Source: an uncultured Clostridia bacterium
GTDB taxonomy: Bacteria; Bacillota; Clostridia; Oscillospirales; Oscillospiraceae
DNA: 33,891 bases
Direction of reading: 5' to 3'
Assembly (NCBI GenBank): GCA_947306975.1
Contig: CAMZHU010000003.1
Span: 1 to 33,891 of the forward strand
Below, piece by piece: positions 31,387-33,104 of this stretch. The notes under the pieces are model-generated. The model did no database searches, was not told the origin of the DNA, and saw nothing but the letters and a program-made list of their open reading frames with translations. Within the stretch, counting starts at the first letter, position 1; each line of letters starts with the position of its first letter. A program made the position numbers and the translations under genes.

Positions 31387-31572
31387 CTGATAACGGTATT
31401 CAGAACAGGCATCCTTAAGCCGTACCGTCCGTGGTAACATTTGGGTATTGTATTAGTGCTCTAATGTGGTATTATAGTAAAGTAATACTAATTGATATGG
31501 TCCCGTGCGCTGATTATATACCGGATGTCAGTACCGGTTTCGGTACACCACGGACCGGAAACGAGGTCAATA

Positions 31573-32376
31573 ATGAAAAAGACAATATCAGTAATCCTCA
31601 TACTAGTTCTCTGTCTCGCTCTGCTCACTGCATGCGGCGGCAAAGAGACCAAGACCGAAGGAATAAGCTATACGCCTGTGTCCACCATGGCGGACGCGCT
31701 GCTAGAAGTAAAATCCGGCACCGCCACATGCGCCGTTGTCGACTATGTCATGGCCAGATCAATGGTAGGTGAAGGGACCGACTACGCCGATCTGACTATC
31801 CTGGAAGGTGTTGATCTCGCAGCCGAGGAATATGCTATCGGCTTCCGCAACGGCAGCACGGCCGTTGAAAAGATCAATGAGGCCATTGATGCACTTGCAG
31901 CTGACGGGACTCTTGCTAAGATAGCAGAGAAATATGATCAGACCTACGCGCTGATCGCCAATCCTGTGCCCTCTCCTGAATCCGGCACCTCCAGCGACGA
32001 TGACTGGGCCTACATACAGGGCAAGGGATCCCTGGTCATCGGCATCACCGAGTATGCTCCCATGAACTACTATGACGATGACGGGACTCTGATCGGTTTC
32101 GATACCGAGTTCGCACAGGCGGTCTGCGATTATCTCGGCATCAAGGCTGAATTCACCGTCATCGAATGGGAGACCAAGGAGATCGAGCTCAGTTCCAAGA
32201 CGATCGACTGCATCTGGAACGGGCTCACGGTCGATACAGAACGCATGGAGAACATGGATTTCTCCTCTTCCTACATGGTAAATAAGCAGTGCCTGGTCGT
32301 AAAGAACGCCGCGTTCGTCGCGGAAGCCGGTTCCGCCGGTGAAGGCGTCGTGACGGACGTCATGCACATCAAGTGA
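31573..32376 (+). CDS. ABC transporter substrate-binding lipoprotein (amino-acid type, SBP family 3), apparently circularly permuted
   Basis: Lipoprotein signal MKKTISVILILVLCLALLTACGG; then lobe 2 / C-terminal motifs (TMADALLEVKSGTATCAVVDYVMARSM...LAAEEYAIGFRNGSTAVEKINEAIDALAADGTLAKIAEKY) precede N-terminal motifs (DDWAYIQGKGSLVIGITEYAPMNYYDDDGTLIGFDTEFAQAVCDYLGIKAEF...DCIWNGLTVDTERMENMDFSSSYMVNKQCLVVKN). SD GAGGT at 31563-31567. Confidence 0.88.
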   Translation: MKKTISVILILVLCLALLTACGGKETKTEGISYTPVSTMADALLEVKSGTATCAVVDYVMARSMVGEGTDYADLTILEGVDLAAEEYAIGFRNGSTAVEKINEAIDALAADGTLAKIAEKYDQTYALIANPVPSPESGTSSDDDWAYIQGKGSLVIGITEYAPMNYYDDDGTLIGFDTEFAQAVCDYLGIKAEFTVIEWETKEIELSSKTIDCIWNGLTVDTERMENMDFSSSYMVNKQCLVVKNAAFVAEAGSAGEGVVTDVMHIK

Positions 32377-32442: not shown

Positions 32443-32462
32443 CAGTGAAAGTGGAGATATAT

Positions 32463-33104
32463 ATGCTTGTGACAGTGACCCTTACCCTGCTCAAGGGCTT
32501 TGGCACGACATGCGCCATATTTCTTATAACGCTCGTCTGCTCCCTTCCGCTGGGACTTGTCATTGCTTTCGGTGCGATGAGCCGTTTCGCGCCGCTCAAA
32601 TGGCTCATAAAAACGATCGTATGGATAATACGCGGCACCCCGTTGATGCTGCAGGTCATCATCGTCTTTTACGGTCCCGGCCTGATCTTCGGCTGGGACG
32701 CTCTGGAACGTATGACCGCCGTTCTGATTGCTTTCGTCATAAACTACTCCTGCTACTTTTCCGAGATATTCCGCGGCGGGATCGAAGGCATACCGCGAGG
32801 CCAGTATGAGGCCGGGCAGGTGCTCGGTATGACGAAGAAACAGATCTTCTTCAAAATCATACTCCTACAGGTCGTAAAACGTATCGTTCCGCCCATGTCC
32901 AACGAGATCATTACGCTCGTCAAGGACACTTCTCTTGCCCGGATCATCGCTGTACGCGAGATCATCAAGGAGGCTGAGACATACATCGCTGTAAAGTCTC
33001 TCATATGGCCCCTGTTTTACGCCGGCGCTTTCTATCTCGTCTTCTGCGGCGTACTTACGCTGCTGTTCGGATGGATCGAGAAACGTCTGAGCTATTTCGT
33101 GTAA
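32463..33104 (+). CDS. Amino acid ABC transporter permease (HisM/GlnP type)
   Basis: LKGFGTTCAIFLITLVCSLPLGLVIAFG, WIIRGTPLMLQVIIVFYG, EIFRGGIEGIPRGQYEAGQVLGMTKKQIFFKIILLQVVKRIVPPMSNEIITLVKDTSL. SD GTGGAG before ATG 32463. Confidence 0.95.
   Translation: MLVTVTLTLLKGFGTTCAIFLITLVCSLPLGLVIAFGAMSRFAPLKWLIKTIVWIIRGTPLMLQVIIVFYGPGLIFGWDALERMTAVLIAFVINYSCYFSEIFRGGIEGIPRGQYEAGQVLGMTKKQIFFKIILLQVVKRIVPPMSNEIITLVKDTSLARIIAVREIIKEAETYIAVKSLIWPLFYAGAFYLVFCGVLTLLFGWIEKRLSYFV

Follow-up and report, generated by a model that had tools for sequence, protein, structure and literature searches.

The window, the whole stretch of DNA analysed here (33,891 nucleotides), corresponds to the entire contig C3 of a draft genome that consists of 123 contigs and is 64% complete. 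Translation confirmed an ORF of 267 amino acids at 31573-32376, and its coordinates, lipoprotein signal, lipobox and Shine-Dalgarno sequence, read directly, are all as given in the original prediction (Table 1). The ORF encodes a substrate-binding protein (SBP), a lipoprotein with a PF00497 domain that is ordered as C-terminal part, linker and N-terminal part: residues 28-129 comprise the rest of lobe 2, hinge 2 and the C-terminal part of lobe 1, and the linker connects the former C-terminus with the former N-terminus. The permease and ATPase genes that had been predicted as cognate adjoin it, and the SBP, the BPD_transp_1 permease and the ABC ATPase stand together as in a polar amino acid ABC importer. 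The true start of the permease is probably the ATG at 32463. The ATPase gene stops short by a few residues at the contig end (a relative ends ...LERYSS).

Table 1. Features of the permuted SBP gene and its neighbours in the window.
Feature	Coordinates	Strand	Basis
Shine-Dalgarno sequence GAGG, 6 nt before the ATG	31563..31566	+	Direct reading
Signal peptide of a lipoprotein, with lipobox LTAC at its end (Cys 21)	31573..31635	+	Translation; retained in the G001, G010 and G082 relatives
Later part of a canonical SBP, residues 28-129 (model 176-276)	31654..31959	+	PDB, Pfam and family-HMM alignments
Pro/Ser/Gly linker NPVPSPESGTSSDD	31960..32001	+	Translation; alignment to canonical relatives
Canonical start, residues 144-247 (N-terminal part of lobe 1; model to 143)	32002..32313	+	PDB, Pfam and family-HMM alignments
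Present C-terminus (residues 248-267), the first strand/helix of lobe 2 (FVAEAGSAGEGVVTDVMHIK)	32314..32373	+	Alignments
Cognate ABC permease (BPD_transp_1)	32445..33104	+	Pfam, E 1.4e-22
Cognate ABC ATPase, truncated at the contig end	33118..33891	+	Pfam, E 3.3e-37

Order of the SBP_bac_3 segments

Canonical SBP_bac_3 proteins run from the start of lobe 1 through lobe 2 to the end of lobe 1, an order that the window protein does not follow. In the native order, SBP_bac_3 (PF00497) matched in two stretches (E 2.3e-29, 102.3 bits; cut-off 26.4), the better of which aligned residues 155-246 with profile positions 2-93 of 132; the first half alone matched positions 97-129 and fell under the gathering score when isolated. 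In a copy rotated in silico, a single PF00497 stretch was obtained (residues 11-215, profile 2-129 of 132, E 2e-31, 108.9 bits). A family HMM made from canonical relatives aligned residues 28-129 with model positions 176-276 and then residues 139-247 with positions 35-143. The N-terminal parts of PDB entries 4ohn and 3hv1 aligned to residues 139-252 and their C-terminal parts to residues 37-121 of the native sequence, and these two swapped blocks became one block against the rotated copy. The merging of both the Pfam stretches and the PDB blocks upon rotation, a comparison that had been proposed for the profile, bears out the view that the gene carries a true rotation and not two fragments, and the alignments place the cut where it had been expected, at a point in lobe 2 that follows the GSAGE strand/helix. 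A match to PF07951 (Toxin_R_bind_C, E 0.009) lay under its cut-off and was disregarded.

Rotation yields a continuous alignment across the whole domain, apart from a 14-residue gap at hinge 1. The original prediction had seen no missing piece, but about 14 residues are absent between VVKN and FVAEAGSAGE in comparison with canonical relatives (VVKN-AAFVAEAGSAGE); these correspond to the hinge-1 crossing and a short DLxGK helix, and the rotated model is therefore not quite complete. The segment is retained in the relative L065 (66% identity), whose two ends meet at model position 172 as an exact rotation, and another relative, L008, is shortened in its own manner, unlike the window gene. Since L065 and the window gene form a clade that leaves out L008 (100/98), the shortening at hinge 1 probably occurred twice.

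An AlphaFold2 model built from an alignment of canonical halves had a mean pLDDT of 78.7 and a pTM of 0.74; values of about 80-98 were reached over most of the two lobes, and in the tail (residues 245-267) the block means were 64 and 50 and no strand was called. The Foldseek alignments to canonical SBPs extended over one half, about 80-90 residues at an rmsd of 0.8-1.3, and the best matches include isolated domain-1 constructs; because the program keeps chain order, the whole rotated fold is beyond its reach. In the structural comparison suggested by the original prediction, the overall model scores speak for a permutant, and the weak C-terminal tail and the match to a single half speak against it.

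Permuted proteins in class Clostridia

The search for homologs that share the permuted order, which had been put forward as a check, was positive: the order recurs in a second species of the same genus (G001; identity 95% for amino acids and 84% for nucleotides), and two further genera carry it as well (G082, 66%; G010, 60%). Between the window gene and its G001 counterpart, dN is 0.028, dS is 1.15 and dN/dS is 0.025, and the C-terminal tail shows no amino-acid change; on these substitution rates, the window gene is under purifying selection.

The permutation is not a one-off, being one among many recurrent cases in class Clostridia. The swapped order was seen in many other ORFs of 250-320 amino acids from related genomes, and mechanical scoring of domain order classed 91 ORFs of the collected loci as permuted and 80 as canonical, a count that describes a collected set and not a random sample, gives no frequency, and excludes one further ORF cut by a contig end. 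The permuted calls rest on this scoring; each ORF joined to itself gave no single alignment, because the signal peptide and linker interrupt it. The cut lies at hinge 1 (model about 140-157) in 40 ORFs, at hinge 2 (model about 208-229) in 47, and within lobe 2 after the GSAGE helix (model about 172) in the remaining four, which constitute type A, the type of the window gene. A lipobox-like site is present in 88 of the 91. When 288 genomes of the class were surveyed, end-to-end matches were obtained in 16 with a hinge-1 permuted profile (A4) and in more than 30 with a hinge-2 profile (A5), the latter with G360 and G389, two single-contig genomes, among them, and in a phylum-wide draw of 249 genomes such matches exceeded the thresholds only in genomes of the same class; the thresholds were strict, and the survey counts are lower bounds. 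Pfam and NCBI models match permuted proteins piecewise, so standard SBP annotation in Clostridia conceals the topology class. Two further matches, one on a viral contig (L181) and one on a Pusillibacter faecalis plasmid, proved to have the canonical order.

Several loci show arrangements of their own. A canonical and a permuted SBP lie a few kb apart on the same strand at L049, L050 and L064. The genus of the window species carries a second, strongly diverged hinge-1 permuted lipoprotein (L057, G001:C77), and at L058 (G051:C10) two near-identical lipoproteins of permuted order stand in tandem, far from all others (branch 2.07). In the hinge-1 clade L067-L074, neither end has the DLxGK helix and the ligand Arg of lobe 1 has been lost, which suggests an altered binding mode.

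For tree building, all sequences were rotated into the canonical order. A FastTree analysis of 171 rows required 20 changes between canonical and permuted arrangements, a rough count given several long branches, and 11 of these were forced by well-supported branches. In the window subfamily (59 rows, IQ-TREE mixture model), seven changes were required, six of them forced, and type A formed a single clade (98/88). A single origin of all permuted rows was rejected (dlnL 339.5, AU p=0.0025), as was a common origin of type A and a nine-row hinge-1 clade (p 3e-8); a grouping of type A with L066 was not rejected (AU p 0.50). The groups tested were named after inspection of the data, and the changes of arrangement may be gains or reversals, between which the tree does not distinguish. 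When the two halves were analysed in separate trees, the N-half and the C-half each required seven changes, with few strong branches per half tree.

Alternative readings and possible origin

A misassembly, or the collapse of two tandem SBP genes into one, which the original prediction named as grounds for refutation, might be suspected in a fragmented metagenome draft in which the locus lies near a contig end. However, separately recovered genomes at 95, 66 and 60% identity share the order with dS above 1, and other permuted types occur in two-contig and single-contig genomes; the occurrence of the same order in independent genomes refutes such an artefact, to which we assign practically no probability. 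The gene could also be the degenerating remnant of a tandem pair, a pseudogene with no transport role, as the loss of the hinge segment and the weak AlphaFold2 tail might indicate, but the low dN/dS and the unchanged amino acids of that very tail, together with a reading frame, signal and operon that are intact in four lineages, make decay very improbable.

A few permuted ORFs have no permease gene within the flank examined, which would suit a sensor or scavenger and not the binding protein of an importer. This reading is unlikely for the window protein: permease and ATPase genes directly adjoin all four type A genes (4/4), and in one relative (L100, G305:C11) a hinge-1 permuted SBP is fused to an ABC permease in one ORF of 537 amino acids. 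Finally, a tandem origin would in principle permit the C-part of one SBP to be joined to the N-part of a different one. The equal change counts of the two half trees speak against chimeras; both half trees also recover the type A grouping, though with low support within each half, no well-supported conflict between them was seen, and L071 and L012 give the best canonical scores for the one half as well as for the other. A chimera is accordingly held to be most improbable, and, as judged from these trees and scores, both halves of the window protein share one ancestry. The family-3 (polar amino acid) SBP lipoprotein encoded by the window gene is very probably a true circular permutant, and a functional one.

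Such permutants probably started from SBP domains in tandem, brought about by gene duplication or present in a fused importer of the tandem type. Deletion of the outer parts would then have left the C-part of copy 1, a linker and the N-part of copy 2, with cuts tolerated chiefly at the two hinge crossings. The linker of the window protein is rich in Pro, Ser, Gly and Asp and resembles the post-Cys spacer of canonical lipoproteins, as expected if tandem copies lost their outer pieces. Two single-chain importers offer living analogues of this route: L179 (G010:C31:6500-11500) covers model positions 141-276, 43-276 and 47-143 in succession, followed by permease and ATPase, and L180 (G026:C108:6000-11000) covers 142-276, 55-274 and 46-144, likewise followed by permease and ATPase. 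With a C-part before and an N-part after a full unit (C-NC-N), both resemble tandem SBDs in a permuted register and stand one deletion away from a hinge-1 permutant, and G010 carries both a type A gene and such an importer. The permuted register is also present across the junction of the tandem SBDs that are fused to a permease in GlnPQ (6h30), and the fused protein L100 is a further candidate intermediate. By analogy with these proteins, duplication followed by partial deletion, as originally proposed, remains the best account of how the permutants may have arisen.

Class Clostridia is likely a hot spot of repeated permutation in family-3 SBPs, with at least seven changes in one subfamily and about 20 overall, nearly always at a hinge crossing; the C-NC-N importers would be living intermediates and chain order an evolving trait. 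The window gene is very probably one of many cases in which this fold was rotated independently within the class.

Predicted function and comparison with known permutants

In the proposed working of the window protein, Cys 21 would serve as the lipid anchor of a two-lobed Venus flytrap fold whose chain enters and leaves in lobe 2, and an amino acid would be bound between the lobes and then passed to the adjoining permease and ATPase. The lobe-1 Arg and the lobe-2 Asp are conserved (GLTVDTER and CAVVDYVMA in the alignment); from HisJ and GlnH, we take these to be the residues that hold the amino acid backbone, a putative role here. The ligand Arg is missing in L008 and L065, which counts against this explanation. 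Cuts at the hinges would leave a single chain crossing between the lobes, and the lobe-2 cut of the window protein is predicted to retain both crossings and to place the lipid anchor on lobe 2 instead of lobe 1. The original judgement that the gene is probably functional is strengthened by the purifying selection and by the operon; binding and transport are predictions from sequence.

Natural circular permutations have usually come to light in structures, as single events of ancient date. The many events found here, with three cut sites, canonical sisters, operons and candidate intermediates, would show which cuts are allowed and how the tandem route proceeds, and also whether relocation of the anchor or opening of a hinge alters binding; many separate swaps in related gut bacteria would thus provide a natural record of protein rewiring in which the shape is kept.

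Permutation of SBPs as such has already been published, and the family-3 case is apparently unreported: no report of a natural family-3 permutant was found in the open-access literature, subscription journals being mostly outside this coverage. The original prediction likewise knew of no natural permutation in this family, but was incomplete in that other SBP types have published cases. PDB profile searches yielded no solved natural permutant, and among the matches listed the only end-to-end spans were those of GlnPQ 6h30 and BvgS 4q0c, both tandem proteins. Circular permutants of an SBP have been engineered for FRET sensors (Clifton et al., 2017, as cited in PMC7683729); according to that citation, the binding protein was permuted deliberately, and these permutants are man-made. 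Glycine-betaine binders (OpuAC/ProX) are related by circular permutation to molybdate binders and CysB (CPSARST, PMC2395249), a relation among two-lobed binding proteins as in the present case, but one that is structure-based, joins functional families at under 24% identity, and is neither of SBP_bac_3 nor recent.

A natural precedent in kind is TpMglB-2 (Tp0684) of Treponema pallidum ('Type Ic / Cluster Bc'), a glucose-binding lipoprotein that is a natural circular permutant, with demonstrated ligand binding and homologues in treponemes and Gram-positives, and for which a link between permutation and tethering has been proposed (PMC4990184). Like the window protein, it is a natural permutant of an ABC binding lipoprotein; unlike it, TpMglB-2 has a type I sugar-binding fold, which belongs to another SBP class and includes a fourth, additional crossing at the hinge, whereas the window protein matches PF00497, a type II family, and not the type I sugar-binding fold. 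TpMglB-2 is also regarded as one founding family and not as recurrent, unlike the Clostridia permutants. The canonical proteins 3hv1 and 4ohn belong to the same domain family as the window protein, with about 40% identity over the N-terminal part, but have the opposite segment order and possess the hinge segment. In GlnPQ-type proteins (6h30; E. faecalis WP_002361277.1), the C-part of SBD1 and the N-part of SBD2 match the permuted profile or protein nearly end to end, but these importers have whole canonical units in tandem, fused to the permease.
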